DNA of 24,689 nt from a virus. The position numbers and the translations under genes were made by a program. The DNA is taken from positions 1 to 24,689 of IMG/VR virus record IMGVR_UViG_3300037189_021472. The stretch is one strand, 5' to 3'. This document shows positions 1,188 to 14,926 of the stretch, piece after piece; position 1 is the stretch's first letter, and each line of letters begins with the position of its first letter. The notes below the pieces were generated by a model. It worked only from the letters and a program-made list of their open reading frames with translations, was not told where the DNA came from and made no database searches.

Positions 1188-1213
1188 AAAAAGAAACCTC
1201 CCGAGGGAGGTTT
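1188..1213 (-). terminator. Intrinsic terminator after the Ntn-hydrolase-like gene
   Basis: An 8-bp stem AAACCTCC (1194-1201) / GGAGGTTT (1206-1213) with loop CGAG is followed on the minus strand by UCUUUUU (1188-1193). It overlaps the stop codon of the upstream gene. A near-identical stem occurs at 10702-10719. Confidence 0.8.
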
Positions 1214-1908: not shown

Positions 1909-2634
1909 ATGAACACCTTACAAGATATGCATGATAAGAAAGGCTCACCAAATCTTTCACATTGGCGCACAGTAAAAATCTTCACAATTGCAGAAGCAAG
2001 CCTACTAACTGCAGGCTTTGATCCGCTTGAATACAGTAAGTGCTCAGATTATCAATTAAGCGATGATTTAAGAAATAATAAACCTCTTCATTGGCAACAT
2101 GTATTGATGTTGATTAGATCTATTACTGAAGCAATTTGCACCCATGAAATTAAATCCCCTTATATCAATGTTGAGCGAAATGATATAAATAGCACTTGGG
2201 ATGAGGTTATTGAACAGGCAAAAATAAGCATTGATGATGCAAAAGATGTTATATACACAACTACAAAAATTCACAGGGATGAATTATATAAATGGCTTAA
2301 CAAAAATGGCTTTCTAAGACTACCGTCACCCCAAGTAATTACGATTGAGCACCTTGATGAAAAACCATTAGAAATCAGTAATGTTTTGCTATTACCCCAA
2401 CTTAATTACAGTACACCAGCTATTAATGCAGCCATAGCAGTTATTAAAGAATTTTGGGAAGATTATAATCCAAATGGCGATCAACCCCCACCAAAACAAG
2501 ACTATGTCAAGCAATGGTTATCTGACAATCATCCAGAGATCGAATCAAATGTATTACGGGAGGCTATTGATAAAATATGTCGTCATCCTGAAGCAAAAAA
2601 TGGCGGAAATAGCAAAATCAAACTAAAGCCATAA
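1909..2634 (+). CDS. Phage accessory protein of unknown function
   Basis: This 241-residue soluble protein has no signal peptide or membrane segment. I do not recognise a named domain. The N-terminal part (about 15-120) carries HWRTVKIFTIAEASLLTAGFD, helical and typical of uncharacterised Acinetobacter/Moraxellaceae prophage proteins. The C-terminal part (about 170-235) is helical and charged, with an EFWEDYNPN stretch and a run like a small DNA- or protein-binding helical domain (PKQDYVKQWLSDNHPEI). It is on the plus strand against the late operon, faces the Ntn-like gene across a divergent gap, and ends with its own terminator (2744-2775). It therefore looks like an independently expressed lysogeny or accessory gene. 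There is no good Shine-Dalgarno before the ATG (TTTTGAAATAAG), so initiation may be weak or leaderless-like. Confidence 0.7.
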   Translation: MNTLQDMHDKKGSPNLSHWRTVKIFTIAEASLLTAGFDPLEYSKCSDYQLSDDLRNNKPLHWQHVLMLIRSITEAICTHEIKSPYINVERNDINSTWDEVIEQAKISIDDAKDVIYTTTKIHRDELYKWLNKNGFLRLPSPQVITIEHLDEKPLEISNVLLLPQLNYSTPAINAAIAVIKEFWEDYNPNGDQPPPKQDYVKQWLSDNHPEIESNVLREAIDKICRHPEAKNGGNSKIKLKP

Positions 2635-2784: not shown

Positions 2785-3063
2785 TCACTTTTCTGAATTC
2801 TGTTTCTTTCTCGTATTAATTAATTCTACTAGAAAGCTGGATGTGGAATTAACCTCCATCCCCGGTACCAACCTTTCTAATACATTGAGAAAAATATCTA
2901 ACTCATTTGTTGTATCAGAAGATTGGTTAAAGCTTTTTTCTAATCTATCGACCATCTCCGCACTTTGTGACCGATTGTTTGATTCAGCAGACTTTTCAAT
3001 TTTCTCTTTAAGTTCTGGCGGAACACGAAGTCGAACTATTGTGTGATCACTTTGGTTGCTCAT
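2785..3063 (-). CDS. Mnt-like ribbon-helix-helix repressor
   Basis: This 92-residue protein has an Arc/Mnt-type ribbon-helix-helix domain at about residues 5-48. The strand is T-I-V-R-L-R-V-P, followed by P-E-L-K-E-K-I, then an S-x-N-x-R-S turn and A-E-M-V-D-R-L helix. The C-terminal half is a further helical segment, as P22 Mnt has for tetramer formation. The ATG at 3063 is preceded by GAGGG. A longer frame to 3081 would need a TTG start inside operator O1 and is rejected. It diverges from the smaller ribbon-helix-helix gene at 3175, and three palindromes lie between them, so it probably represses one or both promoters as Mnt does in P22 immI. Family call strong; operator assignment inferred. 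Confidence 0.85.
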   Translation of the reverse strand: MSNQSDHTIVRLRVPPELKEKIEKSAESNNRSQSAEMVDRLEKSFNQSSDTTNELDIFLNVLERLVPGMEVNSTSSFLVELINTRKKQNSEK

Positions 3064-3074
3064 TAAACCCTCAT

Positions 3075-3089
3075 GCCACAAAAAGTGGC
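3075..3089. promoter_or_regulatory. Operator O1, palindrome GCCAC-AAAAA-GTGGC
   Basis: This 15-bp palindrome with 5-bp perfect arms shares its outer arms with O2 and O3. It lies just upstream of the Mnt-like gene, at the expected transcription start of the candidate minus promoter (3095-3123). Confidence 0.7.
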
Positions 3090-3094
3090 AAATA

Positions 3095-3123
3095 TTTATC
3101 TTTACCTATTTACAATACCACAA
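3095..3123 (-). promoter_or_regulatory. Candidate promoter of the Mnt-like gene
   Basis: On the minus strand, -35 TTGTGG (3118-3123), a 17-base spacer and -10 GATAAA (3095-3100). O2 covers the -35 box and O1 covers the expected start point, consistent with autoregulation. The hexamer match is moderate. Confidence 0.45.
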
Positions 3124-3137
3124 AGTGTGGCTATAGT
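3109..3137 (+). promoter_or_regulatory. Promoter of the Arc-like/antirepressor operon
   Basis: -35 TTTACA (3109-3114), an exact 17-base spacer and -10 TATAGT (3132-3137), each 5 of 6 to the sigma-70 consensus. Operator O2 fills most of the spacer, and O3 begins a few bases after the expected start point. In P22 the Arc operator likewise lies between the -35 and -10 boxes. Confidence 0.75.
3117..3131. promoter_or_regulatory. Operator O2, CCACA-AAG-TGTGG core
   Basis: The palindrome has 5-bp perfect arms (3118-3130) and shares ten consecutive bases with O3. It sits in the spacer of the plus promoter and on the -35 box of the minus promoter, so one bound repressor could block both. Confidence 0.75.
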
Positions 3138-3145
3138 TATCAAAA

Positions 3146-3160
3146 GCCACAAAGTGTGGC
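3146..3160. promoter_or_regulatory. Operator O3, GCCACA-AAG-TGTGGC
   Basis: A 15-bp palindrome with 6-bp perfect arms, the best of the three. Its centre is 29 bp from O2, and O2 is 42 bp from O1. It lies in the 5' leader of the Arc-like gene, directly upstream of the AAGGAG ribosome binding site. Confidence 0.75.
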
Positions 3161-3174
3161 ATCAAGGAGATGTA

Positions 3175-3327
3175 ATGAAAACCACTGAATTTATGTATGT
3201 GAAAGTCCGTTTAAACACTGAACTTCACAAGAAACTTAAAACCAAAGGGCAACAAGAGGAACGCTCAATGAACTACCTAATCAACAAAGCAGTTGAAGCA
3301 TTTTTAAACCAAGGAGTAAACGCATGA
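3175..3327 (+). CDS. Arc-like ribbon-helix-helix repressor
   Basis: This 50-residue protein (P22 Arc is 53) has strand F-M-Y-V-K-V-R-L, then T-E-L-H-K-K-L, a turn with E-R-S-M-N, and helix Y-L-I-N-K-A-V-E-A-F, which is the Arc/MetJ fold order. The start at 3175 has AAGGAG five bases upstream. The longer frame from 3073 would translate the operators and promoter and is rejected. Its stop overlaps the antirepressor start as ATGA (3324-3327), so the two are coupled, as arc and ant are co-transcribed in P22. It most likely binds the GCCACA/TGTGGC operators and limits antirepressor synthesis. Which of the two ribbon-helix-helix proteins binds which operator cannot be told from sequence. Confidence 0.85.
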   Translation: MKTTEFMYVKVRLNTELHKKLKTKGQQEERSMNYLINKAVEAFLNQGVNA

Positions 3328-4082
3328 ACTCATTAACAACACCTTTTCAACTATCTATCGATGGGATTGGAATTCGCACAGATACATTTGGTCGTTTTTG
3401 CTTAAATGACTTACACAAGGCTAGTGGTTCACAAGAAAAGAACAAACCTAAATTTTTTCTTGAAAATAAACAAACACAGGAACTTGTTCAAGAATTAACC
3501 GAGGGAGGAATTCCTTCCTCGCCTAAAATTCAACCAGTTAGTGTTATTCGTGGTGGACTAAGTCAAGGAACCTATGTTGTAAAAGAGCTTGTTTACTCAT
3601 ATGCCATGTGGATTAGTGCAGCATTCAATCTTAAGGTTATTCGAACTTTTGATGCTTATATCAATAATCAAATTCAGCCAGTGTTTGATATCACAAATCC
3701 AGTTCATTTGTTACAAGCCATAGAAATCCAATCAAAGAAAAATCTTGAGCTTCAGACCAAGGTTGAAGAATTAACCCCAACTGTTAAAGCATTTGATCGA
3801 ATTGCTACAGCTGATGGAAGTATTTGTATAACTGATGCTGCCAAAGCTTTACAAATGCGACCAAAAGATTTGATTTCAAAGCTTCAAGCTGAAAAATGGA
3901 TCTATAAACGTACTGGTTCAGCTCACTGGCTTGGCTATCAAGATAAAGTTCAGTCAGGGTATCTTGAGCATAAGGTTACAGAAGTGACACGCACTGATGG
4001 CACATCAAAAATCACTGAGCAGGTTCGAATAACTCCAAAGGGATTGACCAAACTCGCAACGTTAATTGGCAATCAACCATGA
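3324..4082 (+). CDS. Phage antirepressor, KilA-N plus KilAC (ANT) domains
   Basis: This 252-residue protein has an N-terminal KilA-N domain (about 8-112) with F-x-L-N-D-L-H-K-A-S, K-P-K-F-F-L, and the late motif G-T-Y-V-V-K-E-L-V-Y-S-Y-A-M-W-I-S. A short helical linker follows (about 130-150, KKNLELQTKVEEL). The C-terminal KilAC/ANT domain (about 155-247) has I-T-D-A-A-K-A-L, the W-I-Y-K-R turn and R-I-T-P-K-G-L. Such proteins bind and inactivate a CI-type phage repressor to trigger induction. The start has AAGGAG seven bases upstream and overlaps the Arc-like stop. Its own stop overlaps the next gene's ATG. With the two ribbon-helix-helix genes it forms a P22 immI-like unit. The target repressor is outside the window. 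Confidence 0.9.
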   Translation: MNSLTTPFQLSIDGIGIRTDTFGRFCLNDLHKASGSQEKNKPKFFLENKQTQELVQELTEGGIPSSPKIQPVSVIRGGLSQGTYVVKELVYSYAMWISAAFNLKVIRTFDAYINNQIQPVFDITNPVHLLQAIEIQSKKNLELQTKVEELTPTVKAFDRIATADGSICITDAAKALQMRPKDLISKLQAEKWIYKRTGSAHWLGYQDKVQSGYLEHKVTEVTRTDGTSKITEQVRITPKGLTKLATLIGNQP

Positions 4083-4441
4083 ATATTTCAGACAACAAAA
4101 AAGCCCAGAATCTTGGCGGATTGGGCTTAATTGAAAAGTCACTAGGACTAACAACTATGCACACTATACCATCACCCGAACCAGAACCACAAGACCCAAG
4201 CCCTAAACTGTTCAGGAAAGACAATATGCAAGCTGATCTTCAAGCAACAGCAAGTAAATTTGATGAAATGGCGAACCTATTTTCTGTGATCAAAACATTA
4301 CTGGATCAAAAGTCACCTCATGCCACATCTCAAGTAAAACAATTAGCTGAGACTGGTATGTATGTCTGCGAAGATTGGTCTGATCAAATAATGAAGATTG
4401 AACAGAAGATAACAACGGATTCAAATGTTTATTTTCATTGA
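4079..4441 (+). CDS. Unknown protein coupled to the antirepressor
   Basis: 120 residues from the ATG at 4079, which overlaps the antirepressor stop (ATGA). No domain is recognised. The first 48 residues are low in order and Pro-rich (IPSPEPEPQDPSP); the rest, from MQADLQATASKFDEMANLF, is helical. An internal ATG at 4226 has AGGAAAG five bases upstream and would give only the helical 72 residues, so it is a serious alternative start. The early codons form a terminator-like hairpin (4097-4128) for the opposite strand, which supports the downstream start. It is the last gene of the immI-like operon, before a strong bidirectional terminator. Confidence 0.6.
   Translation: MNISDNKKAQNLGGLGLIEKSLGLTTMHTIPSPEPEPQDPSPKLFRKDNMQADLQATASKFDEMANLFSVIKTLLDQKSPHATSQVKQLAETGMYVCEDWSDQIMKIEQKITTDSNVYFH
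4097..4128 (-). terminator. Minus-directed terminator-like hairpin inside a plus-strand ORF
   Basis: AAGCCCA (4101-4107) pairs with TGGGCTT (4122-4128). On the minus strand six U follow (4097-4102). A second inner pairing AATC/GATT is possible. It would stop late transcripts that pass the 4447-4470 terminator before they run antisense through the antirepressor. Confidence 0.5.
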
Positions 4442-4446
4442 ATTAA

Positions 4447-4470
4447 AAAAACCCGCTTAGGCGGGTTTTT
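4447..4470. terminator. Bidirectional terminator between convergent operons
   Basis: Stem ACCCGC (4451-4456) / GCGGGT (4461-4466) with loop TTAG, four A before and four T after, works for both strands. It ends the plus-strand antirepressor operon and the minus-strand metallopeptidase gene. Confidence 0.9.
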
Positions 4471-4488
4471 GTTTGCTGAAGAGAAGGA

Positions 4489-5517
4489 CTACCATAAGCC
4501 ATAGATTATATTGGCTTGAGTTGGATGATCTAAATTTATAAACAAACCTTGATCTTTGGTTACTTCAACTATTAAACCGTTTTCTTTGGCAATCCGGCTT
4601 GCCAATTTTCCTACATCTAAAAAGCTATCTACTGAGGCGGAATCACTCTCTAAGTTCTTAATAATATTTTTATAGATCGTTTTTAGTTCTTTAATGTGTG
4701 AATGGAGCTCATGATTTTTAATCCTTTCACTTATCTTGGATGTCTCTTTGGTATGAATATCACCAAGATAATAAGATGCATATTTTAAAAAAGAATGAAT
4801 TAATATGTATGTGTCATTAAATAAGTCAATATATGCATTTTGATCATTCAATCTTATACAATTCATGTAATTCTTGAATATCGCTCTCTTTCTGCTCTCG
4901 AATGAGTCCATTGTTTTGAATAAGATATCTTCATAGTTAGATTCTTGATCTTCTCCTATTTGATTTGCCTCAGAGCATACAGCAAACTCATCCCAACAAA
5001 TCCTAGAAATAGCATGTTCCATAGCATTTAATTTATCTGGAAAACTGTCTCTTATTGCATATTCTCTAAACTTTTTATAAATCATGGAATTATTTGAAAC
5101 ATGACACATCTCGTGAAATAAAGAATGTGCAAATCGATTAATCACCTTATGTTTAATTTTATCATCGGTTTGCGCTTCAAATTCTTTTAGTAAGTTTTCA
5201 AGCTCAAAGTATGAGCAATTTATAACAATATGATTCTTTGAATAATCACCATCTATACTAGAAATTGTCATTGCAACACCAACCCCTTCATCATTTGATG
5301 GGGCAAGATTTTTGTTGAAACATTTCAATCTTTTTAAATATTCTTCATCGCTTATTGCAATACTAATCCCTTCTAACGCAGAAACGTCTGTTAACTTTGC
5401 AAAGTCACAAACAAGCGTACTGAAAAACGGAGATAGTTGATCAATAATTGATTGATTTTTAAACCCCAATAAAGTCATTGAAAGGTTTTCACTTAAGGTG
5501 CTTTGATTATCTTTCAT
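4489..5517 (-). CDS. HExxH zinc metallopeptidase-like protein
   Basis: 342 residues from the ATG at 5517, which has TTTGAGA about five bases upstream; the longer frame to 5529 needs a TTG. The zincin motif H-E-M-C-H lies at residues 135-139 within SLFHEMCHVSNN. About 38 residues later comes C-W-D-E-F-A-V-C, where E177 could be the third zinc ligand, as in gluzincin-like proteins. The N-terminal 130 residues and helical C-terminus match no family I can name. There is no signal peptide, so it is probably cytoplasmic. It follows the exported-protein gene 5562-6098 by 44 bases with no terminator between, so the two are likely co-transcribed. Accessory gene in the tail region; a host-protein protease or anti-competitor role is inference only. 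Confidence 0.7.
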   Translation of the reverse strand: MKDNQSTLSENLSMTLLGFKNQSIIDQLSPFFSTLVCDFAKLTDVSALEGISIAISDEEYLKRLKCFNKNLAPSNDEGVGVAMTISSIDGDYSKNHIVINCSYFELENLLKEFEAQTDDKIKHKVINRFAHSLFHEMCHVSNNSMIYKKFREYAIRDSFPDKLNAMEHAISRICWDEFAVCSEANQIGEDQESNYEDILFKTMDSFESRKRAIFKNYMNCIRLNDQNAYIDLFNDTYILIHSFLKYASYYLGDIHTKETSKISERIKNHELHSHIKELKTIYKNIIKNLESDSASVDSFLDVGKLASRIAKENGLIVEVTKDQGLFINLDHPTQANIIYGLW

Positions 5518-5561
5518 TTTAATTCTCAAAGTATATTTTAAAGAAGGCTTAACACAGTGTT

Positions 5562-6098
5562 TTACTTCTTAACTATATCCAAAAGACCTTGTAGCGTTTT
5601 TATTGGCTCAGAGGCTTGACCTTTTTCAGAATAAAAAGATCCTTCTCTATATCCATTTGATATAGTTGAAACTCTATACTTAACATCTTTTCCGCTCAAT
5701 AATTTCTCGAGATAATCCACAGGAATTATTACTGCACTAATTGTTGTGCCAAGGTTACCAGAGCGTGTAATCTTGTTTTGCCGAATATCTACTGGAAATG
5801 TATTTATTTCCCCATCAATGTTAAATGATACTTTATCCACATTAGCCATTACATCACCTAGGGTGATTGTGAGTGAGACATGATCAGGAATACTATTAAC
5901 CCATAATCCACCGAAAGAGACTGTGCTAAGCATTGTATTTTTATCAAAAACATAAACGCCATAAGGCTTTACAATGCAAGTTTCTACATTATCAAATCCA
6001 CTTACACTGCATTCTGGATCGTACTTAGATTTAGCGTATACATTTAACGAAATAAGAAAAACAGAAATTAAAGAAAAGACTGATCCAATTTTTTTCAT
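5562..6098 (-). CDS. Exported protein of unknown function
   Basis: 178 residues. The signal peptide starts MKKIGSVFSLISVFL and probably ends after V-Y-A near residue 22. The mature part is beta-rich with two early Cys (C-S-V-S-G-F and E-T-C) that could form a disulfide. No known domain is recognised. The ATG at 6098 has AAGGAG nine bases upstream; the frame extending to 6134 has no comparable site and would bury the signal peptide. A terminator lies between it and the tape measure gene upstream. It is likely first in a two-gene unit with the metallopeptidase-like gene. The leader hairpin at 6103-6122 holds part of its ribosome binding site. Confidence 0.7.
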   Translation of the reverse strand: MKKIGSVFSLISVFLISLNVYAKSKYDPECSVSGFDNVETCIVKPYGVYVFDKNTMLSTVSFGGLWVNSIPDHVSLTITLGDVMANVDKVSFNIDGEINTFPVDIRQNKITRSGNLGTTISAVIIPVDYLEKLLSGKDVKYRVSTISNGYREGSFYSEKGQASEPIKTLQGLLDIVKK

Positions 6099-6102
6099 TC
6101 TA

Positions 6103-6122
6103 AAGCACTCCTTGAAGTGCTT
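6103..6122 (-). promoter_or_regulatory. Hairpin enclosing the ribosome binding site
   Basis: AAGCACT (6103-6109) pairs with AGTGCTT (6116-6122) around a 6-base loop. On the minus strand the AAGGAG Shine-Dalgarno lies across the loop and one arm, so folding could limit translation of 5562-6098. No U-run follows, so it is not a terminator. Confidence 0.45.
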
Positions 6123-6143
6123 ATAAAATATCAATTAAAAAAG

Positions 6144-6164
6144 AAAAAAGCCACCGAAGTGGCT
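6144..6164 (-). terminator. Terminator after the tape measure gene
   Basis: Stem AGCCAC (6149-6154) / GTGGCT (6159-6164) with loop CGAA is followed by a U-run on the minus strand (6144-6149). It lies five bases after the tape measure stop. Confidence 0.8.
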
Positions 6165-6168
6165 ATTC

Positions 6169-9100
6169 TTATTTTGACAATAAACCGCCTTGCCGCTTCT
6201 CTTGAATAATCACAGCTCGTACAGCATTACCAACAACCTGAGCAAACTGTCGCTGATCCTGGGTATTACCACCTGAAGTATTTACACCTGAGTCGGTTAC
6301 CGTGACTTGGATTGTGATGCTTGGCTCTGATGATTGTGTTGTATTTAGCTGACCAGAATTGTGCCAAATCGAATCAAGCTGCCTTCTATCAACATCGTCA
6401 CCACTCATTCGAGAAACTCCCACTAGCCCTCCATCTTTAAATTTTTGAACATTTAAATCTGGTTGAGTAGAACCTAAGTACTGAGATTTCATAGTTAGAT
6501 ATTTACGCTGATAAGGTAACTCACCAGTACGGTTCATGTAGTCGTAATTAGCTACACCTATTTTCTTGACAGCCCAAGCACGTGTAACAAATTCATTATC
6601 GGATAGTCTTGCATTTATTGAATCGCTCGTTTCTGTTCCAGCACCTCTGACTTGACCATTTCCAGTAAATAAGCCACCCGTATAAAAGCCTTGAGGAGTT
6701 GCCGCCTGAATCATTGATAGTAATGATCCTGATTGCACTGTAGCAATTGCAGCTGCACCAATTTTTTGCCAAATTGTACCTGGTTCATTGGCAAATGCAT
6801 CTGATGCTGCCTTGTAAACGTTCATTCCAGCTTGAGCCAAAGCAAAAGATTTTTGTGCAAAGAATAAGGCTTTATAAGTCCCAGAAGCTTCTCCAGCATA
6901 ACCTTTAACTAGATCCGCCATCCCACCAAACATAGCGCCATATGTTGATAAGTTGCTTATTTGTTGTTGCTGCCTCATAGCTCTCTCATCCTCAACCCCT
7001 TTCATTTTGATTAATAGAAGTTGATTTTGATAGTTTTGCTCAGCCTGTAACAACATTTGATTACGTGTTTCAGCCTCAATCAAGTACTGATCTTTGTCAT
7101 CCTTCTTATTAATATCCTTAACAGAATTTTGATAAGAATCATAAGCGCCACCTATAGAAGAACCATATTGATTTTGAAACTGCCACTGTGCAAGTTGCGG
7201 TTGAGTCATTGTGTTTTGTGCCATTAACTCATAATAAGCACGTTGCAATTCACCTGTTTGCAGTTCTAAAGCGGCTTTAAACTCATTGAGTTTGTCTTGT
7301 TGCAGTCTATGGTATGCCGCTAGTTCGTAGTCATGAAGTTGTTTAAGAGCAGCCTTATACTTAGCCTTACTCTCTTCACTATACTTACCTTCGGCATCAA
7401 GCCTTAAAACATTAGCATCGTAGGTATATTGAAGCTTCTGTGATTCAGTATATTTGTAGCCATTTAGCTCATAATCTTGTTGAAGATCATTAAGTTTCTT
7501 TTGTGCTTCAAATCGAGTAGTTAACTGAGCTTCATATGTTTTCTTTTCATCACCAGATAAAGCCGAATTTTCACGAATCTTCTTGAGTTGATCCTTATAT
7601 TCTTGCTCCTCTTGAAGACCTTTAGACATAAAATCCTTACGGATTTTTTCGGCTTCTTCTTGGGACTTTTCAAGTAGCTTTACCTGATCATTTAAGAGCG
7701 ATTCATAGTCTTTAGAACTCCCTGAAAAGCCGCTAATACCCCCCATATAGCCATAATAATCTTTGATGTACTGATTATTATATTTACCAAGATTTTTGCC
7801 TCTTTGGACATTTCCCTCACCTGCATGATAGGCACGAACAGCCTTCTCTACGTTTCCATTGAAAAGTTTCAATAGATATGAAAGATATTTTGCAGCACCT
7901 TCGGCAGATTGCGCTAAGTTATAACGATCTTTAACGCCATACTGGTCACCAGTTCCTTTAAGAAATTGGAAACCACCTGCAGCACCAGAACCTTTGTTAT
8001 ATGCATTTGCATTACCACGAGATTCAATCATATGAATCGCAGACAACATTCCGCTTGGTAGCCCATACTTACCTTCCAATCCACCAAAGTTATACTTAGC
8101 CGCATTAGCTTTTACTTTTTCGTTGACCTGTAAGACTTTAAGCTGCTTCTCAAGCTCTTTGGTTCGATCTTTTTCGGATTTACTTGCTTCATCCGATAGT
8201 GTTTTACGCTTCTGATCTAAGACCCATAGATCATTTAAAATTTTAGCTTGCTCAGTGGTTAACTGAATATCTCTTTCGATTTTGTTCTCTTTTCGCCAAT
8301 TAAGTGCAAAATCAGCAAAAGTTGAAGCTTTCTGTTTATCACCACCAATATTTTTCAATTCTCGATTATAAGTATTAATCCAATAATTATCGTCAAGCAT
8401 TGATTTGTTGGCAGATTTTCGGAGTTCACTTAGTCTCTGTTCATTGGCCAATTGCTTCCGTTTCTCTTCTGTTACCTCTTTTTCAGCAGCTAAAACACCT
8501 TGATGCTGACTTAAATAAGTATTTCTAAAATCAATTTGCTTCTTAAGCTCAACGTTCACACCAGCTACTGAATTCTTGTAGCTATCCGCTTGCTTTGATT
8601 GAGCAATAAATGAATCAATTGTTTTTTGAGGAATTGGAAGATTTTCCAAAAATATCCGCGATAATTGCGTTGCTGAAATTGTTCCTTTGCTATAACTATC
8701 TAGAGCATTTTTAGCAATAATTAATTGTTTTGCTGAGGCACCAGAATTTTCACTGATTTGAAGAAAGGATTCAGCTGATTTAACAATTGACTCTTTAGAG
8801 TTTGAATATGACTCATTTAGACGCTCAGACTCGTTTGTTAGCTTTGAAATTTTGTCTGCATTTTCCTCATAAAGACCTGAAGCTTTAGCCATATAGCTGT
8901 TTGCTAATTCTTTCTGATAACCAAATTCACGTGCTGAACTTATACCCTCATCTAATTGAGCAAAATAACGCTGCGCACTTTTAATCTCCCCATCTGTAAA
9001 TAATTTTGATTTACTCAGATTCTGAAGTGCAGCAGCTGTACTTAAACCTTCTTCCTTGATCTTTTTAAGTTGATCAAGCATTAGGTTTTGACGTTTAATT

Positions 9101-10641
9101 TCTTCATTACTTATTGACTCAGAATTACCTGTTACCATTCCCAATAAGCTATCTCTAGCTTTTGAAACATCAGATTGTGATTTTTTGATTCTTTTATCAA
9201 TTTCATCCATTTCTGAGATAAGTTTAGCTGCTGATAATTTACTATATTCAGCTGCAATCTCTCTAACCGATTGCTTTTGAATATTAAGAGAGTTTGTAGC
9301 TGAGTCTGTATTGTCTCTCATTAAAAGCATTGATGCGCCAACGGCCGCAACAATACCTACTAATCCCCCAGCTCCACCAAGTAATCCGAGCAAACCACGA
9401 CCAGCTCCCATTGTTGCATTATTTGCTACAGCTGATCTTGTTCTAGCTGCCGCTAAAGCATTTTCAGTAGCTGTTAATTCTACGTTGATGGCTGCTTGCT
9501 GTTGACGCAATAACCCCATTCTCAATTCAGAATTAATTGCACCCTGATCTGAAATTTGTTTTTTCTTACGAGCTAATTCTAGTTTCAACTCTTCGATAAG
9601 TTGCGCGCGTGTAGCTTGAAGATTAACTAATTTAGCCTCCGCGCCTGCCAATTCTTGTGCTGCGGCTACTTTTTCAGCTTCAATCGCTGCCCATTGAATA
9701 GCTGTTTGTTCAACTAATTGGGTAGCTTTTCCATATCCTGCAACTACACTTTTATAAAGTGCAGGAATATAAGTGCCAACCCAATAAGCACCACCGATCA
9801 TAGCAATGTTGGTTACATTGTTAAGGTTTTCTGCGAGTAAAGTTAGAGATCCTGAAATTGCATTTGCAGCCCCACTCCCTTTACCAGCCTCACCCACAAA
9901 CTTAGTGACTTCATTGGATAATTGCGTGAATGACTGAGCAATAGTGAAATCTGTTTTGCCGAATAGTTCATTTACTGAGCCACGTGCCTTTGTTAAAGCA
10001 TCAACAAGTACATCACCTGTAATCTTTCCTTCTGCAGCAACTGAACGTAATTGACCTACTGTGATTCCCATACCTTGAGCAATTGCCTTTGCAAGTCCAG
10101 GCGCTTGCTCCATAACAGAGTTAAGCTCTTCACCTCTTAGAACATTGGAAGCCAAAGCTTGTGAAAATTGAACTAATGCAGCTTCGGCCGAAGCAGCTGA
10201 ACCACCACTAATTGCGATTGCTTTAGCAACGGTATCAGTTAGTTCTGCGGTTTTGGCTTGAGTAATGTTTAAACGCTGTGCATTGTCGGAAAAGCGTTGA
10301 TAGATCTGTGCAACCGAATCCCAAGCTTGTGCAGTATTTTGAGCGATTTTGAAAGTATCGTTCATTGCAGTATTGAGTTCAGATTGACTTTTAGTGACTA
10401 ATTTAAGTTTGTTATTTAAACCAGTATAAGTATCCATCTTAGCGATCGCAGTACCAACAGTCACAACTCCTGCCAAATACCCTGCCAATTGACGTGCTGC
10501 CACTGACATAGAGTTCATTGAGGTAGTTGCGTAATTACCAGTGCGTTCGATACTTTGTAGCTCTCGATCTAAAGCACGTGCATTACGTGCTGCTTGTTCT
10601 GAGCTAATTTCAATAATGAGTGTGCTGCGTTGTTCAGCCAT
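6169..10641 (-). CDS. Tail tape measure protein with lytic transglycosylase domain
   Basis: This 1490-residue protein, the largest in the window, sets tail length and is ejected with the DNA. The N-terminal tape-measure domain (about 60-250) has L-R-G-E-E-L-N-S-V-M-E-Q-A-P-G-L and G-M-G-I-T-V-G-Q-L-R. Long coiled coils follow (about 310-400 and 450-850). A Gly/Ala-rich hydrophobic segment at about 412-437 could cross a membrane. An SLT-type lytic transglycosylase domain lies at about 855-965, with the likely catalytic Glu at 873 in H-M-I-E-S-R-G-N, then G-A-A-G-G-F-Q-F and A-Y-H-A-G-E-G-N. The C-terminus resembles lambda gpH-type tails. ATG at 10641 has AGGAAAG six bases upstream. It is downstream of the gpG/gpGT pair, as in lambda, with two accessory genes inserted between. 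Confidence 0.95.
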   Translation of the reverse strand: MAEQRSTLIIEISSEQAARNARALDRELQSIERTGNYATTSMNSMSVAARQLAGYLAGVVTVGTAIAKMDTYTGLNNKLKLVTKSQSELNTAMNDTFKIAQNTAQAWDSVAQIYQRFSDNAQRLNITQAKTAELTDTVAKAIAISGGSAASAEAALVQFSQALASNVLRGEELNSVMEQAPGLAKAIAQGMGITVGQLRSVAAEGKITGDVLVDALTKARGSVNELFGKTDFTIAQSFTQLSNEVTKFVGEAGKGSGAANAISGSLTLLAENLNNVTNIAMIGGAYWVGTYIPALYKSVVAGYGKATQLVEQTAIQWAAIEAEKVAAAQELAGAEAKLVNLQATRAQLIEELKLELARKKKQISDQGAINSELRMGLLRQQQAAINVELTATENALAAARTRSAVANNATMGAGRGLLGLLGGAGGLVGIVAAVGASMLLMRDNTDSATNSLNIQKQSVREIAAEYSKLSAAKLISEMDEIDKRIKKSQSDVSKARDSLLGMVTGNSESISNEEIKRQNLMLDQLKKIKEEGLSTAAALQNLSKSKLFTDGEIKSAQRYFAQLDEGISSAREFGYQKELANSYMAKASGLYEENADKISKLTNESERLNESYSNSKESIVKSAESFLQISENSGASAKQLIIAKNALDSYSKGTISATQLSRIFLENLPIPQKTIDSFIAQSKQADSYKNSVAGVNVELKKQIDFRNTYLSQHQGVLAAEKEVTEEKRKQLANEQRLSELRKSANKSMLDDNYWINTYNRELKNIGGDKQKASTFADFALNWRKENKIERDIQLTTEQAKILNDLWVLDQKRKTLSDEASKSEKDRTKELEKQLKVLQVNEKVKANAAKYNFGGLEGKYGLPSGMLSAIHMIESRGNANAYNKGSGAAGGFQFLKGTGDQYGVKDRYNLAQSAEGAAKYLSYLLKLFNGNVEKAVRAYHAGEGNVQRGKNLGKYNNQYIKDYYGYMGGISGFSGSSKDYESLLNDQVKLLEKSQEEAEKIRKDFMSKGLQEEQEYKDQLKKIRENSALSGDEKKTYEAQLTTRFEAQKKLNDLQQDYELNGYKYTESQKLQYTYDANVLRLDAEGKYSEESKAKYKAALKQLHDYELAAYHRLQQDKLNEFKAALELQTGELQRAYYELMAQNTMTQPQLAQWQFQNQYGSSIGGAYDSYQNSVKDINKKDDKDQYLIEAETRNQMLLQAEQNYQNQLLLIKMKGVEDERAMRQQQQISNLSTYGAMFGGMADLVKGYAGEASGTYKALFFAQKSFALAQAGMNVYKAASDAFANEPGTIWQKIGAAAIATVQSGSLLSMIQAATPQGFYTGGLFTGNGQVRGAGTETSDSINARLSDNEFVTRAWAVKKIGVANYDYMNRTGELPYQRKYLTMKSQYLGSTQPDLNVQKFKDGGLVGVSRMSGDDVDRRQLDSIWHNSGQLNTTQSSEPSITIQVTVTDSGVNTSGGNTQDQRQFAQVVGNAVRAVIIQEKRQGGLLSK

Positions 10642-10661
10642 TTTTTACTTTCCTACGGATG

Positions 10662-10688
10662 AAAAAAAGCCCGCAGGAAAGGCGGGCT
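10662..10688 (-). terminator. Terminator upstream of the tape measure gene (second of two)
   Basis: Stem AGCCCGC (10668-10674) / GCGGGCT (10682-10688), 7-base loop, with seven U on the minus strand (10662-10668). It is in tandem with 10697-10719. Confidence 0.85.
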
Positions 10689-10696
10689 ACAGGTAT

Positions 10697-10719
10697 AAAA
10701 AAACCTCCCGAAGGAGGTT
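10697..10719 (-). terminator. Terminator of the exported-protein gene (first of two)
   Basis: Stem AACCTCC (10702-10708) / GGAGGTT (10713-10719), loop CGAA, followed on the minus strand by seven U (10697-10703). Confidence 0.85.
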
Positions 10720-10735
10720 AAATAAATTTCAGCTT

Positions 10736-11548
10736 TTAGATTGTGTTGCCACAGATGTCTTTGGTGCCTGATGGGTAGGTTTGAGTCATTTTTGTGGAAT
10801 CAGTAATCAATTTAAAAGTTATAGGCTTGCCAATAAATTTCGAATTTGCATTTGGAGCAGCTTGCGACTCTGCTAAAAATCCAATTTTAGTTATAGGGTT
10901 GTTAGCAGTTACGTTCATGTACCCATAATTCACACCGTTTACAATAAAACCAAGTTGTTTTGATTGTTGATTAATATAAACACCAAATCTTAATATTCCA
11001 TTTGCTGGAACTTGAATTGGAAAACTTCTTGGATCGACATCTTTAAATCCTAGCTGCCCATTTGTAGTCTGGTAACTCCCCCCAACAATTACAAGTTGGT
11101 TCCCATTTGCTGATGGTGGGGAATTATTTACTAAAGCTTGAGCTAACTGAATACCCAACTCCATTCCAGATGCAGAACTACCAGCAACTACAAATCCCAT
11201 TTGTTGTATTTCTTGGGTTGATCCAGCTAATAAGCTTTGAAGTTGAGAAGTGTCAATTTCTGCCTCGAAAGCAAAAGTTCCATTATTCACTACGTTCTTA
11301 TCTGGAATACCATTCAATGTAGTGGCTGAAGCTAATACTTGATCTATAGTAGGATTACCCATTAATTTTATTACTGATATTCCTTCTTGAGTTGATGTAT
11401 TGATAGTGGTCATCAACTCTTTTTTTCTAGAGTGTGAAGAATTATAAGTATCAATTTGTGCCTGTGTAGCATTGAAGTCATATGTGCAAGCACTCCATCC
11501 ACTCATGCTCATCAATCCGGTTGCTAAGGCGATAGTTAGTTTTTTCAT
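10736..11548 (-). CDS. Exported protein, probable DUF4882 family
   Basis: This 270-residue protein has a signal peptide (MKKLTIALATGLMSMSGWSA, cleavage near 20). The mature chain starts C-T-Y-D-F-N and ends K-D-I-C-G-N, so first and last Cys could form a disulfide. Length, export and pattern fit the mainly Acinetobacter family DUF4882, recalled from memory. The body looks like a beta-sandwich of the lectin/glucanase type (F-A-F-E-A-E-I-D and L-R-F-G-V-Y-I-N strands), but no catalytic motif is seen. ATG at 11548 has AAGGA seven bases upstream. A candidate promoter (11576-11605), an upstream terminator (11637-11665) and two downstream terminators make it a self-contained accessory unit between the gpGT-like and tape measure genes. 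Confidence 0.7.
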   Translation of the reverse strand: MKKLTIALATGLMSMSGWSACTYDFNATQAQIDTYNSSHSRKKELMTTINTSTQEGISVIKLMGNPTIDQVLASATTLNGIPDKNVVNNGTFAFEAEIDTSQLQSLLAGSTQEIQQMGFVVAGSSASGMELGIQLAQALVNNSPPSANGNQLVIVGGSYQTTNGQLGFKDVDPRSFPIQVPANGILRFGVYINQQSKQLGFIVNGVNYGYMNVTANNPITKIGFLAESQAAPNANSKFIGKPITFKLITDSTKMTQTYPSGTKDICGNTI

Positions 11549-11575
11549 TATTCATTCCTTTTATTTTGAAAATAA

Positions 11576-11605
11576 AATATAGAACAATGAAATAAGTTAT
11601 GCGAA
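11576..11605 (-). promoter_or_regulatory. Candidate promoter of the DUF4882-like gene
   Basis: On the minus strand, -35 TTCGCA (11600-11605), an 18-base spacer and -10 TATATT (11576-11581). It lies after the terminator at 11637-11665 and before the 10736-11548 gene. Confidence 0.45.
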
Positions 11606-11636
11606 ATAAATCCGATAAAGATTTTTACTCTTCAAT

Positions 11637-11665
11637 AAAAACCGACCTTTAAAAAGATCGGTTTT
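11637..11665 (-). terminator. Terminator of the small membrane-protein gene
   Basis: Stem AAAACCGA (11638-11645) / TCGGTTTT (11658-11665) with a 12-base loop. U-rich sequence follows on the minus strand. Confidence 0.7.
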
Positions 11666-11686
11666 ATGGTTTGATGATCATGTTTA

Positions 11687-11839
11687 TTACCACCAGCGTA
11701 TGGCAGCAATCACTGCCGCGATTCCAAATAATACTGATGCAATAATTGCGGCAGTTGCTAATTTGTTACCAGCTTTATCAGCACCTAATTCGCTCATTTT
11801 TCCGTCTACCTTTAATTGGTTTTTAGGGGTATAATTCAT
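11687..11839 (-). CDS. Small single-span membrane protein
   Basis: 50 residues from the ATG at 11839, with one hydrophobic helix near the C-terminus (LATAAIIASVLFGIAAVIAA) ending in R-W-W. The frame extends up to 11935, but that part contains the terminator hairpin 11876-11913, so the longer start is rejected. The start at 11839 has GAGGA about 11 bases upstream. An alternative ATG at 11797 (MSELGADKAGNK) gives 36 residues. No family is recognised. It lies in the G/GT-tape measure interval, where an unrelated inserted gene is more likely than a tail part. Holin-like or superinfection-related roles are possible but unsupported. Confidence 0.5.
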   Translation of the reverse strand: MNYTPKNQLKVDGKMSELGADKAGNKLATAAIIASVLFGIAAVIAAIRWW

Positions 11840-11875
11840 ATATGTTCTAATCCTCAAGTGTGCGTTGTGGGTTGG

Positions 11876-11913
11876 AAACAAAAACCCCAAGAGCTGTGAA
11901 CTCTCGGGGTTTT
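11876..11913 (-). terminator. Terminator downstream of the gpGT-like frame
   Basis: Stem AAAACCCC (11881-11888) / GGGGTTTT (11906-11913), extended inward by AGAG/CTCT after one mismatch. U-rich sequence follows on the minus strand; T's on the plus side make it partly bidirectional. Confidence 0.8.
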
Positions 11914-12004
11914 GTTTTGGAATCAAGAAAACCATACGAATATTGTTCTCTCTTATACGTGCACCTCTAAATAAAATTTGTTAGAAGTTTTGATTAAATA
12001 GCTC

Positions 12005-12732
12005 TCATGCCTTATTCACTTCACTCAAGTACTTCCCATCCAGCGCAAAAATACACTCAACAAAAAGCCCTCGATCTAAGTCACAACCGTACACATCAAA
12101 ATAACTTTTAATATCGGCAAGAGTCAGTGAGTCATAAAACCCACCACCCTGCGGAAAGGCAATAAAACGTCGTGCCTTTGAAATTAAATTAAAGGCTTTA
12201 AGGATATGGTTTGCGGTGTAACTTGGTTCTAGACGCTCAGGTGGTTTTATGCCGAGCTTTTGGTAGACTTCTGCGGTTTTTTCTTCGCACCATTTGATGT
12301 TTCTTTGTTCGTAGTGCTTGAGGACTTTCCCACTTCATCAACAATCTCATCTGCCTTTGAATTACGGATTTCTTGAGCCTTATCCATGATGAATACAATA
12401 ATTTCAAGAGATTGCTTCGAGCTTGTACAAATCAACTCAGCATTTAGTGGGCTGTATTCGATTGGCTTTTTATCTTTACCAACTAGACCCACCCAGCCTA
12501 ACAATAGATGTGAAACAGCACGGTTAAAACCTAATTTGGCTTTAACCGCTCCTTCATCTGTAACAGCCTTAATGCCTGCAAGCTCTTGCTCAGCTTGAAT
12601 CCCATTGAGTTCAAGTGAACGTTGAAACGATGGCTTATCAATACTCGCAATGAGTAGTTTCACGCCATCTTTGAAATCAAACCATTCTTGAACGTATTCA
12701 ATGGACTTCTGTTCTTCAATTTCAATTAACAT
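12005..12732 (-). CDS. gpGT-like tail assembly chaperone made by -1 frameshift
   Basis: Translation starts at 12732 in the gpG-like frame, reads 136 codons to AAG at 12325-12327, slips back one base on G GGA AAG, and continues from 12325 for 106 codons to TGA at 12005-12007, giving 242 residues. The extension begins VLKHYEQRNIKWCEEKTAEV and includes RRFIAFPQGGGFYDSL. It has no start codon of its own, so it is missed by ordinary ORF calling, yet it is fully open and protein-like. In lambda, G and G-T are made at a fixed ratio from the same heptamer and act as chaperones for the tape measure protein. Position between tail tube and tape measure matches lambda exactly. The efficiency of the shift cannot be read from sequence. 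Confidence 0.8.
12247..12732 (-). CDS. gpG-like tail assembly chaperone, unshifted product
   Basis: 161 residues, ATG at 12732, three bases after the tail tube stop codon region (12735). The N-terminus (MLIEIEEQ) leads into an alpha-helical domain (about 15-120), and the last 35 residues are a Lys/Ser-rich, disordered tail (GAKKKPQKSTKSS). Lambda gpG binds the tape measure and keeps it soluble before tube assembly. Here translation could be coupled to the tail tube gene, with GGGG about eight bases before the ATG. The slip site 12325-12331 lies near codon 135. No clear Pfam name can be given; the assignment rests on position, size and the frameshift. Confidence 0.8.
   Translation of the reverse strand: MLIEIEEQKSIEYVQEWFDFKDGVKLLIASIDKPSFQRSLELNGIQAEQELAGIKAVTDEGAVKAKLGFNRAVSHLLLGWVGLVGKDKKPIEYSPLNAELICTSSKQSLEIIVFIMDKAQEIRNSKADEIVDEVGKSSSTTNKETSNGAKKKPQKSTKSSA
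12325..12331 (-). other. Slippery heptamer G GGA AAG for -1 frameshift
   Basis: The complement of 12325-12331 reads GGGAAAG with GGA and AAG in the zero frame (first base of GGA at 12330, 134 full codons from the start). This is the lambda G/GT heptamer. The -1 frame downstream is open for 106 codons. Confidence 0.85.
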
Positions 12733-12734
12733 GA

Positions 12735-13649
12735 TTAAGGCCCCGCAACTACAGGAATACGTGTAAGAGTCGGTGCAACATCCGCGACTGTGAACGAGAA
12801 TTGGGTAGTTAATACATCACCAGCGCCACCACTTGGCAAAGGCGCAGATACTTGTACCTTAGGTAGCTTGAGTGTGTATTTATTACCTGCAGTATCTTTC
12901 AACGAATATTCAAGGCCGATCGGTTCATTTAAGAATTGTTTTTCATAAAGCTCTGCAGTGTTTTTGGACCATGCAATTGTAAAGTTACCACTGCCTTTCA
13001 TAATAGTTTCTAAGATTGCGGCAATGTTATTTTCATAGTCTAAGCACTTTTGGATCTGCATTGTATTATCAATGGTTAATTCAATCTGAGTGATGCACAT
13101 TCCTGGTTTCTTTTCACCATCAATAAGAATGTCACCAGTGGATAGGCTAGTTAATGGTACTGCATCCACTGCTGGTGTTACGGTACCAGTCGGGGCAACC
13201 TCATAAGCTGTACGCTTCATTCCCATAATTGCGAATTTAGAAGTCACAATACCAGAATCAGGGATCGATAAAGTCCATTGGTTAATATGGCAACCGGTGA
13301 AAACTTGGAAATTATCAATATCACTAAAGCCACGAATAATCGAAAGTGTTTTTCGATTTGTGCCGCCAAATGTTAAAACGTTGCTACTCCAAGCATTGAA
13401 GGCAACTAGTTCTAAAACTTTATCTTGAATGCCATAAGCCCATTCGGATTCAATATCGCCTTGCACTTCAACACCAGTTACCAAAGTACCTGCTGCAATT
13501 CGTGAATCTTTAATCGTTTGCGATTCGGTGGTTTGTGCCGATGCATCTAAACCATTAGTGGTAAATGCAAATGTATTCCATGTGGTTGCAATCACACCGG
13601 GTGATGCTTCAAAACCAACTCGGGTTAATTGTTTAGCTCCAGAACTCAT
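12735..13649 (-). CDS. Major tail tube protein
   Basis: This 304-residue, beta-rich soluble protein has F-E-A-S-P-G-V near residue 13 and G-V-E-V-Q-G-D-I-E-S-E-W near 60, both typical of siphophage tube proteins of the Phage_tube_2-like type (from memory). The middle carries W-T-L-S-I-P and F-A-I-M-G-M strands; the C-terminus ends in F-S-F-T-V-A-D. Subunits stack as hexameric rings around the tape measure. The ATG at 13649 has AAGGAG before it. It lies directly upstream of the gpG-like gene, and an antirepressor module separates it from the tail terminator gene. It is longer than lambda gpV (246), perhaps by an added domain. Confidence 0.85.
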   Translation of the reverse strand: MSSGAKQLTRVGFEASPGVIATTWNTFAFTTNGLDASAQTTESQTIKDSRIAAGTLVTGVEVQGDIESEWAYGIQDKVLELVAFNAWSSNVLTFGGTNRKTLSIIRGFSDIDNFQVFTGCHINQWTLSIPDSGIVTSKFAIMGMKRTAYEVAPTGTVTPAVDAVPLTSLSTGDILIDGEKKPGMCITQIELTIDNTMQIQKCLDYENNIAAILETIMKGSGNFTIAWSKNTAELYEKQFLNEPIGLEYSLKDTAGNKYTLKLPKVQVSAPLPSGGAGDVLTTQFSFTVADVAPTLTRIPVVAGP

Positions 13650-13671
13650 GAAGTTCTCCTTAATTTAGGCA

Positions 13672-13695
13672 TAAAAAAACCTCCTTTAAGGAGGT
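13672..13695 (-). terminator. Terminator after the antirepressor gene
   Basis: Stem ACCTCC (13679-13684) / GGAGGT (13690-13695) with loop TTTAA; a U-run follows on the minus strand (13673-13679). It shields the tail tube gene from antirepressor transcripts. Confidence 0.8.
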
Positions 13696-13707
13696 GGATT
13701 GATTTTT

Positions 13708-13732
13708 AGGGTGGCATTTGAAATGCTACCCT
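13708..13732 (+). terminator. Plus-directed hairpin with T-run
   Basis: An 11-bp stem (13708-13718 with 13722-13732, one G-U pair) is followed by T's on the plus strand. No plus-strand gene ends here. It directly follows the antirepressor stop, so it could block antisense transcription or protect the mRNA 3' end. Confidence 0.5.
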
Positions 13733-13735
13733 TTT

Positions 13736-14272
13736 TTAATCATCATCTTTATTTTGTAAATCTAATGATTGCTGTGTTTCGTTTATTAGGTCATCTAGCT
13801 CTTTAATCATGGCTGGCTTAGTCTGCTTCCCATGGACAACAAGAAAACGACCTGCCTCAGATAGACCTTGTGTAATTAACTCAAGCTGTGCTGAAAGCTT
13901 ACCGATCCGCACTTGCATTCCATCTTTAAGATTTCGGGCAATATCTTCTTGTTCGATGTAATACAGGCGAACTTCACGACCACGATCTGTACATTCAACC
14001 ATTGAAAGTTCTTTTGCCATATCAACTGACAATATGTAATCTGTTTTGTGTTTTGCACCACTAACACCCTGCTCCACCACTTGGTGGATCAGATAATCAA
14101 TATTTTCCTGAAACTTATACTTTGAAATTCGACGCTTAATCCATGTCGAAAAATCCTGTTTACTATCAAGCCAGTGATGTAAATCTCGTGCATTTACGCC
14201 AAATTGATTTTTCCCATTTATCTTAACTTCTATAAATGGGGTTTGATTTTCGATTTTTACAATCGCATTCAT
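13736..14272 (-). CDS. AntA/AntB-type phage antirepressor
   Basis: 178 residues. The AntA/AntB domain spans about 22-108: V-N-A-R-D-L-H-H-W-L, D-F-S-T-W-I-K-R-R-I, the Y-I-L-S-V-D-M-A-K-E-L segment and T-D-R-G-R-E-V-R-L-Y-Y-I-E. The C-terminus (about 110-178) is helical with an acidic end. Such proteins antagonise the phage repressor and favour lytic growth. The ATG at 14272 has GGAG seven bases upstream (14280-14283). The frame stays open to 14383 through the C4-like RNA, giving an in-frame leader like icd in P1/P7, whose translation is linked to ant. The gene is inserted between tail terminator and tail tube genes, with terminators on both sides. Confidence 0.85.
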   Translation of the reverse strand: MNAIVKIENQTPFIEVKINGKNQFGVNARDLHHWLDSKQDFSTWIKRRISKYKFQENIDYLIHQVVEQGVSGAKHKTDYILSVDMAKELSMVECTDRGREVRLYYIEQEDIARNLKDGMQVRIGKLSAQLELITQGLSEAGRFLVVHGKQTKPAMIKELDDLINETQQSLDLQNKDDD

Positions 14273-14279
14273 TGTTATG

Positions 14280-14291
14280 CTCCGACCACTC
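14280..14291 (-). promoter_or_regulatory. Antisense target and ribosome binding site of the AntA/AntB gene
   Basis: On the minus strand, GAGTGGTCG (14283-14291) directly abuts GGAGC (14279-14283), which holds the Shine-Dalgarno. The first pairs over nine bases (one G-U) with CGACTACTC at 14326-14334 of the C4-like RNA; GGAGC also matches GCTCC at 14355-14359. Confidence 0.65.
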
Positions 14292-14325
14292 ATAAAATAA
14301 AAGAAAGCCAACAAGAAGATGCAAT

Positions 14326-14394
14326 GAGTAGTCGAAACGACCATCTTCCTTTCAGGAGCTACCCTAGTCGGCTTGGATGCCATATTTCAGGCAT
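14326..14394 (-). ncRNA. C4-like antisense RNA controlling the antirepressor
   Basis: About 70 bases directly upstream of an AntA/AntB gene, the known place of C4 RNA in P1/P7 and related prophages. On the minus strand it has a hairpin ATGCC...GGCAT (14377-14381 with 14390-14394), then a closing stem GGGTAG/CTACTC with one G-U pair. Inside the stem are two small hairpins, TCC-TGAAA-GGA and TCG-TTT-CGA. The CGACTACTC arm is complementary to the antirepressor ribosome binding region. In P1 the C4 RNA is processed from the same transcript as its target and blocks icd/ant translation. No convincing promoter of its own is seen between the upstream terminator and this RNA. Exact ends are uncertain. 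Confidence 0.7.
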
Positions 14395-14395
14395 T

Positions 14396-14424
14396 AAAAA
14401 AGCCGAACTGTGATAGCTCGGCTT
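14396..14424 (-). terminator. Terminator of the tail terminator gene
   Basis: Stem AAGCCGA (14400-14406) / TCGGCTT (14418-14424) with an 11-base loop, then six U on the minus strand. It lies immediately upstream of the C4-like RNA. Confidence 0.8.
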
Positions 14425-14453
14425 AAAGGTTAAATTGTTAAAAATTTGCTTAA

Positions 14454-14489
14454 TTTTTTTCTTCCAGAATACTTTATGGAAGAAAAAAA
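14454..14489 (-). other. A/T-rich 12-bp hairpin
   Basis: TTTTTTTCTTCC (14454-14465) pairs perfectly with GGAAGAAAAAAA (14478-14489) around a 12-base loop. The runs of A and T are within the stem and no U-run follows, so it is not a standard terminator. It lies about 27 bases after the tail terminator stop. Confidence 0.5.
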
Positions 14490-14515
14490 ATTTAATGACT
14501 AATATCGTGGTAGGG

Positions 14516-14926
14516 CTAGTTCACTCGAAACTCAGCTCTCACTATCTTTGCATAAAAATTATCATCATCCATATCTTGTGGCGCATGGACTCTATAGACT
14601 TCTAAATGTGAAATACCAAATGATTGAAGAAAATCACGCCATTTAACACATAGATTTGTCATTTCAATCGTGCCTGTATTCTTTGGTGCAAAGCATTGAA
14701 TTGAAATAGTGCCTATATCTCGAATACAGGGTTCATTTCCAATACCTGCAATCAAACTATCTCCATACTGAATATAAACTTTGCACCAAAGTTTATTTGA
14801 TGGTGGATCAAATGGTTTACCATCTGGAGTTTTCTGATTTTCAATACGAAGATTTGTTTTTTCCACACCACTAAATTGGCCTATTCGCTTGTATATCGCC
14901 AATTCAGCCTCTGATAAAGTCATCAT
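14516..14926 (-). CDS. Tail terminator-like protein
   Basis: 136 residues, of a size and placement (just before the tail tube) that fit gpU/DUF4128-type tail terminators, which cap the tail tube and join it to the head. Features include an amphipathic N-terminal helix (LSEAELAIYKRIGQFSG), a central W-C-K-V-Y-I-Q-Y strand, an I-S-I-Q-C-F-A-P strand and a last strand F-Y-A-K-I-V-R-A-E-F-R-V. The ATG at 14926 overlaps the stop of the preceding gene (ATGA). It begins with two Met codons; the upstream site is weak, so initiation is likely coupled. The family call is by pattern and position. Confidence 0.65.
   Translation of the reverse strand: MMTLSEAELAIYKRIGQFSGVEKTNLRIENQKTPDGKPFDPPSNKLWCKVYIQYGDSLIAGIGNEPCIRDIGTISIQCFAPKNTGTIEMTNLCVKWRDFLQSFGISHLEVYRVHAPQDMDDDNFYAKIVRAEFRVN

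Follow-up and report, generated by a model that had tools for sequence, protein, structure and literature searches.

Two antirepressor-class cassettes, probably under separate and exchangeable controls, in the late gene cluster of an Acinetobacter phage

A phage fragment of 24,689 bases, the single virus record IMGVR_UViG_3300037189_021472 of IMG/VR (hereafter, the window), carries two genes of antirepressor classes in its late cluster: antA, which follows a structured leader RNA, and a gene for a KilA-N/KilAC protein, which is grouped with two ribbon-helix-helix genes. We conclude that these probably represent two independent, exchangeable cassettes, the one controlled by repression resembling that of P22 immI and the other by a C4-like RNA directed at the antA Shine-Dalgarno sequence. 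They lie about 10 kb apart on opposite strands of the late region, just as an earlier reading of the DNA without database searches (the sequence-only reading) had placed them. The source is judged by its relatives to be a temperate Acinetobacter phage.

The leader RNA and the start of antA

The antA module, RNA and gene together, spans 13736-14375 and is located between the tail-terminator and tail-tube genes. Its parts are the following.

13736-14272, minus strand: AntA-domain antirepressor-class protein of 178 amino acids (PF08346, phrog_5817; start set by conservation)
14279-14293, minus strand: target 5'-AUGAGUGGUCGGAGC, which includes the antA Shine-Dalgarno GGAG
14297-14375, minus strand: predicted antisense leader RNA of 79 nucleotides, C4 topology, int-alpA type (from comparison, model and fold)
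14367-14374 with 14305-14312: outer stem of the leader, followed by a small hairpin
14342-14348 with 14315-14321: second hairpin of the leader, followed by a U-run
14324-14338, minus strand: antisense loop 5'-GUUUCGACUACUCAU, forming a 15-bp helix with the target
14400-14424, minus strand: intrinsic terminator just 5' of the leader

The protein matches the AntA/AntB domain PF08346 at 87.1 bits (cut-off 27; E 1.2e-24) and phrog_5817, anti-repressor Ant, at E 7.6e-56, in agreement with the class that the sequence-only reading had given it. The start chosen there, 14383, is too early: the AntA proteins of relatives begin MNAIVKIE, which sets the start at 14272, seven bases 3' of the GGAG Shine-Dalgarno, and the upstream part of the listed open reading frame (ORF; 13736-14383) is the leader RNA. 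Minimum-energy folding, unaided, returns an outer stem, a small hairpin and a large hairpin (z = -2.66), the same layout as in the C4 and int-alpA consensus structures.

As computed, loop GUUUCGACUACUCAU and target AUGAGUGGUCGGAGC form 15 consecutive base pairs. Across 32 distinct sequences, pairing in this antisense helix reaches 98.5%, and two of its pairs carry two-sided and seven one-sided changes; in the outer stem, pairing is 99.6%, with two-sided changes in five pairs. Overall, 94.7% of 1046 cells are paired and 10 pairs have two-sided changes, against 36-49% pairing when the alignment is slid. Whole loop-target pairs are also replaced: type B has loop CAUGUUCA with target UGAACAUG, and a compensated form with CAUAUUCA and UGAAUAUG; type C has UCUCGUUACC with GGUAACGAG; and type D has GAUGCUCA with UGAGCAUC. 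The genes and their order, the RNA structure, its complementarity to the antA start, the co-variation of loop and target and the recurrence of the modules described below are thus observations.

Whole-leader duplex energies, compared with shuffles, are significant for most type A leaders but give a weak signal for types B and C, since a long, AU-rich leader readily finds pairing partners; the analysis then relied on matching of the loop alone, with a permutation test that treats the loops as unrelated. When 46 distinct loops were matched to their own downstream sequence, the mean was 17.5, versus 12.4 for permuted partners (sd 0.49, maximum 14.5), and none of 10,000 permutations reached as high. 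A set of 37 Rfam int-alpA loops from other genomes gave 15.9 versus 12.5 (sd 0.41, maximum 14.0; 10,000 permutations). Among int-alpA RNAs of other gammaproteobacteria, the loop matches the sequence right 3' of the U-run and often also the Shine-Dalgarno, as in ACCCAA with UUGGG and GUGGGAGG, or CCUUCA with UGAAGG.

Two side observations concern the placing of such targets. In the int-alpA RNAs of L242-L271, the 3' tails hold two loop-complementary sites, the first following the U-run and the second at the Shine-Dalgarno, which recall duplicated C4 or P4 CI targets. In two related records (L162, 19937-20100, minus strand; L003, 11830-12030), an orphan leader of type A or B is followed by a second, unrelated antisense hairpin (types D and C) that matches the actual start site.

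The leader had been described as a C4-like antisense RNA, and this holds for its structure: an RNA of C4 topology, with an outer stem and two hairpins, is found at 14297-14375, and its loop pairs with the ribosome-binding region of antA, the gene that follows. It does not hold for the family. Rfam C4 (RF01695, threshold 45 bits) finds no match in 14200-14530 or in the whole record even at E 10, while P1 C4, the positive control, scores 68.8 bits in the same search; in 25 related phage records, nothing rises above a 12-bit, chance-level match. There is no ORF between the RNA and antA that could be icd, and no RF03163 match for a1/b1 targets in the window. Membership of Rfam C4 was rejected by score. 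The int-alpA model (RF02996, threshold 35.8 bits) likewise gives no match to the window leader at E 1. Close orthologues, on the other hand, pass its cut-off (L010, 38.3 bits; qsb1, 35.9; G016, 41.4), and 23 of 40 related records match it at E 1 or better. Model R1, built without the window's lineage and partly from RF02996-positive sequences, scores the window leader at 78.3 bits (E 6e-22) and so ties it to RNAs that pass RF02996. By these comparisons, the window leader belongs with the int-alpA-type RNAs and is C4-like in its presumed working, not a member of Rfam C4.

The KilA-N cassette and its surroundings

The other cassette occupies 2785-4082.

2785-3063, minus strand: predicted Mnt-like divergent Arc-type ribbon-helix-helix repressor (PF03869 Arc, E 1e-8; PHROG Arc-like)
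3075-3090: operator-like palindrome 1, at the start of the divergent gene
3109-3137, plus strand: putative sigma-70 promoter of the arc-ant operon, TTTACA-17-TATAGT (consensus match only)
3117-3132: operator-like palindrome 2, within the promoter spacer
3146-3161: operator-like palindrome 3, just 3' of the -10 box
3175-3327, plus strand: Arc-like small ribbon-helix-helix protein of 50 amino acids (HicB, E 6.8e-5; phrog_3180 Arc-like, E 9e-14)
3324-4082, plus strand: predicted antirepressor with KilA-N and ANT (KilAC) domains, both above the Pfam cut-off
4079-4441, plus strand: overlapping ORF that ends the operon, without a function by homology

In P22 immI, mnt is divergent from arc-ant. The window has this order, with a divergent Mnt-like and a co-directional Arc-like ribbon-helix-helix gene preceding an antirepressor-class gene, as the sequence-only reading had recognized; the Pfam and PHROG matches bear it out. 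By inspection of the sequence, the start codon of the divergent gene is the ATG at 3063; the listed ORF extends to 3081. The KilA-N domain scores 81.8 bits (E 3.9e-23) and ANT/KilAC 108.2 bits (E 3.4e-31); P22_AR_N is not found in this protein. Searches of Pfam and PHROG with the 4079-4441 ORF gave no match. The palindromes, of type GCCACAnnnTGTGGC, are solid, with three copies between the divergent genes and five matches in the whole window versus 0.6 expected. The TTTACA-17-TATAGT promoter is only suggested, because shuffles yield such matches by chance (2.5 on average); it is the only promoter-like site seen there. Since the arc and ant ORFs overlap (3327/3324), there is no room for a sar antisense RNA, and none is placed there.

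The controls of the two cassettes look separate, since no copy of the RNA target occurs at the KilA-N operon and no copy of the palindrome at antA; the only further candidate RNA target in the window is a 3-mismatch site within the 10736-11548 gene. The sequence-only reading is supported in setting protein repressors and operators against an antisense RNA as two different kinds of control. Such a pairing is not unprecedented, as P1 already combines a C4-controlled Ant with KilA.

The minus strand is a late cluster, with a terminase small subunit, portal-like, Mu F-like and capsid proteins, and tail genes including those below. No CI gene is in view within the 24.7-kb fragment.

82-426, minus strand: minor tail
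6169-10641, minus strand: tape measure
12735-13649, minus strand: tail tube
14516-14926, minus strand: tail terminator

Several other features of the window were noted. A TonB C-terminal-like protein (498-1142, minus strand) is flanked by minor tail genes, and a small protein at 1213-1806 (minus strand) matches MJ0548_N (connectase/proteasome-like, E 3.4e-8), which is odd for a phage tail region. The family-less protein at 1909-2634 (plus strand) is 60% identical over 106 amino acids to an L214 gene directly 3' of an int-alpA RNA; no leader RNA is visible before the window's gene. Just 5' of the 14400-14424 terminator, 14451-14494 is an almost perfect inverted repeat containing runs of A and of T, by eye a two-way terminator, where neither L139 nor L162 aligns to the window.

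Recurrence and exchange in related phages

A search of related phages for both modules, as the sequence-only reading had proposed, finds them together: an Arc-type module lies within about 10 kb of a leader-type antA in 11 of 32 records, a count that documents recurrence only. The neighbouring gene has a KilA-N (window, G003, G023, G024), Bro-N (G005, G028), ANT (G010, G013) or ORF6N (qsb1) domain in nine of these 11, and the second module is on the antA strand in seven of the nine and on the opposite strand in the window and qsb1. Four KilA-N/ANT relatives in Acinetobacter-type phages (L162, L165, L167 and L169) all have the antisense leader and a second antirepressor-class gene at most 10 kb away.

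These relatives also bear on assembly. L162 shares the KilA-N operon and tail genes of the window at 94-98% identity, tape measure included, with Rha, behind a type D hairpin, replacing AntA; L139 combines the leader and antA with these tail genes, at 88-97% identity. Because the modules recur together and these two records share the flanking tail genes, the window is, as judged from its relatives, a natural combination and no mis-assembly. That a chimeric assembly joined two phages is hardly credible: it might be raised for a single virus record of unstated assembly quality, but each cassette is found with the window's tail genes in L162 and L139, and modules of both kinds are present in the isolated phage qsb1. 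A DNA search with the whole window for close phage relatives gave one weak match only.

The leader is present in tens of AntA relatives, and its model matches 30 of 176 Acinetobacter genomes. The gene 3' of it encodes AntA in most cases, and elsewhere Rha, P22_AR_N, KilA-N/P63C or a GIY-YIG-like protein. Ab105-2phi and three other phages have the leader at about 80% identity, with a Rha gene 3' where examined, while in Ab11510-phi an AntA protein is directly behind an Arc pair. Since the leader precedes several gene classes and AntA can stand behind an Arc pair, control element and antirepressor class are, on this comparative evidence, shuffled independently. As a side observation, the type A leader of L280 (995-1477, minus strand) is before a T5orf172/MUG113 (GIY-YIG-like) protein, which takes the place of an antirepressor.

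Proposed mechanism, alternatives and known systems

We propose that, in the first cassette, the Mnt-like and Arc-like repressors would silence the KilA-N/KilAC antirepressor by binding operators over a single promoter. In the second, the leader RNA would end in a terminator-like stem and U-run, and its second-hairpin loop would pair with the antA Shine-Dalgarno and hide it, such that AntA would be made only once readthrough mRNA outnumbers or escapes the leader RNA. As a loop changes along with its target, an RNA with a loop of type A, B, C or D would be expected to silence only antirepressors with a matching target, giving RNA-level incompatibility groups as in P1/P7. Transcription, translational repression, action in trans, and the activity and targets of the antirepressors are the parts of this scheme that we infer.

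Several points weigh against it. The permutation test takes no account of relatedness among loops, against which stands the fact that the loop types are many and mutually unlike. For the window by itself, pairing as strong is seen in 2 of 100 shuffled leaders, the strength of the case being the comparison across relatives. Some B and A leaders have a second hairpin 3' of them and have lost the nearby target match, and intramolecular pairing would yield the same co-variation as pairing in trans. Finally, no sigma-70-like promoter was found between the 14400-14424 terminator and the RNA, so the RNA perhaps comes from late read-through only. Leader RNA and antA mRNA alike may stem from late read-through; AntA would in that case be made late, and a role against other prophages would suit it better than one in triggering induction.

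The last point leads to an alternative that we regard as quite possible, if not our preference: both proteins may target other prophages or host factors and not the phage's own repressor, making the cassettes genes for competition or crosstalk in place of two induction inputs. The cassettes swap freely among phages, and antA in a late operon comes too late to start induction unless it is separately transcribed. Fels-1 FsoA is a precedent for an antirepressor acting on other prophages (PMC3121763), and modules for induction independent of DNA damage are known (PMC10432266). Rather unlikely, in our view, is a leader that works only in cis, its loop folding onto the Shine-Dalgarno of its own transcript as a pseudoknot-like lock or attenuator, with no small RNA (sRNA) acting in trans. 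The loop and its target always lie next to each other on the same transcript, at a distance of 30-45 nt, and in many int-alpA RNAs a first target is already present within the 3' tail of the RNA itself; however, the stem and U-run resemble a terminator, which would set free a short RNA, and C4, functionally the nearest analogue, is reported to act in trans (PMC12197685). We consider it very improbable that the leader is a true C4 RNA of the P1/P7 family, since the three-stem topology and the position before an antirepressor gene are shared but the C4 model that finds P1 C4 misses the leader, icd and a c4-a1b1 element are missing, and the genuine C4 RNAs of Acinetobacter genomes are another family. 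Slighter still is the chance that it is an ordinary transcription terminator with complementarity due to chance or shared ancestry. Its stem does end with a U-run, and AU-rich sequences pair easily, but the permutation test, the compensatory changes and the replacement of whole loop-target pairs all argue otherwise.

A limited literature search, which did not extend to the original family description, turned up no function assigned to int-alpA RNAs. By a narrow balance, we favour the view that they are a widespread C4-type antisense class whose hairpin 2 loops silence the next ribosome-binding site; that in Acinetobacter prophages they form a portable switch for any antirepressor class; and that matching loop-target types would let the RNA of one prophage silence the antirepressor of another, so that co-resident prophages also bearing a second, protein-repressed antirepressor would fall into RNA-coded incompatibility groups. 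This suggests a testable function for a family described only as a motif, and a 10-nt loop would predict which co-resident prophages can silence or wake each other. With AntA behind an RNA or an Arc pair, and KilA-N proteins likewise, the two-antirepressor arrangement would be a recurrent design and not an oddity.

Among known systems, P22 immI resembles the first cassette in its divergent Mnt-like gene and in the Arc-like gene co-directional with the antirepressor, and the palindromes in and beside the predicted promoter may correspond to its operators; the window antirepressor is KilA-N plus ANT, whereas that of P22 is P22_AR_N. In P1/P7 immI (C4-icd-ant1/ant2, with kilA adjacent), a three-stem antisense RNA also precedes an antirepressor gene and covers its ribosome-binding site with a loop, and P1 KilA has the KilA-N plus ANT architecture of the 3324-4082 protein. 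The window differs in having no C4 model match, no icd and no a1/b1 element; its protein has the AntA domain, whereas P1 Ant1 shows only ANT, and P1 kilA is under C1 and an antisense transcript in place of Arc-type repressors. In Gifsy-1, an antirepressor operon is likewise under RNA control (PMC4825925).

The int-alpA RNAs share the outer stem, small hairpin, second hairpin with variable loop, U-run and the Shine-Dalgarno of the next gene, although the window copy is below detection (E above 1) and is located in a phage late region, not in the int-alpA position. A. baumannii has 21 C4-like Group 1 sRNAs, multi-copy and chromosomal (Weiss et al. 2016, PMC5320573), which are also phage-derived, three-stem, antisense-type RNAs of Acinetobacter with a variable loop; they match Rfam C4, whereas the leaders here do not and directly precede antirepressor genes. 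Rfam C4 is found in 146 of the 176 Acinetobacter genomes, with up to 23 copies each, a set distinct from the int-alpA-type leaders. In phage vB_AbaS_qsb1, the AntA gene sits in the same tail slot, and a divergent Arc pair with an antirepressor-class (ORF6N) gene is on the opposite strand 3.3 kb away; it differs in having a type B leader followed by a type C antisense hairpin, an arrangement that its annotation does not describe.

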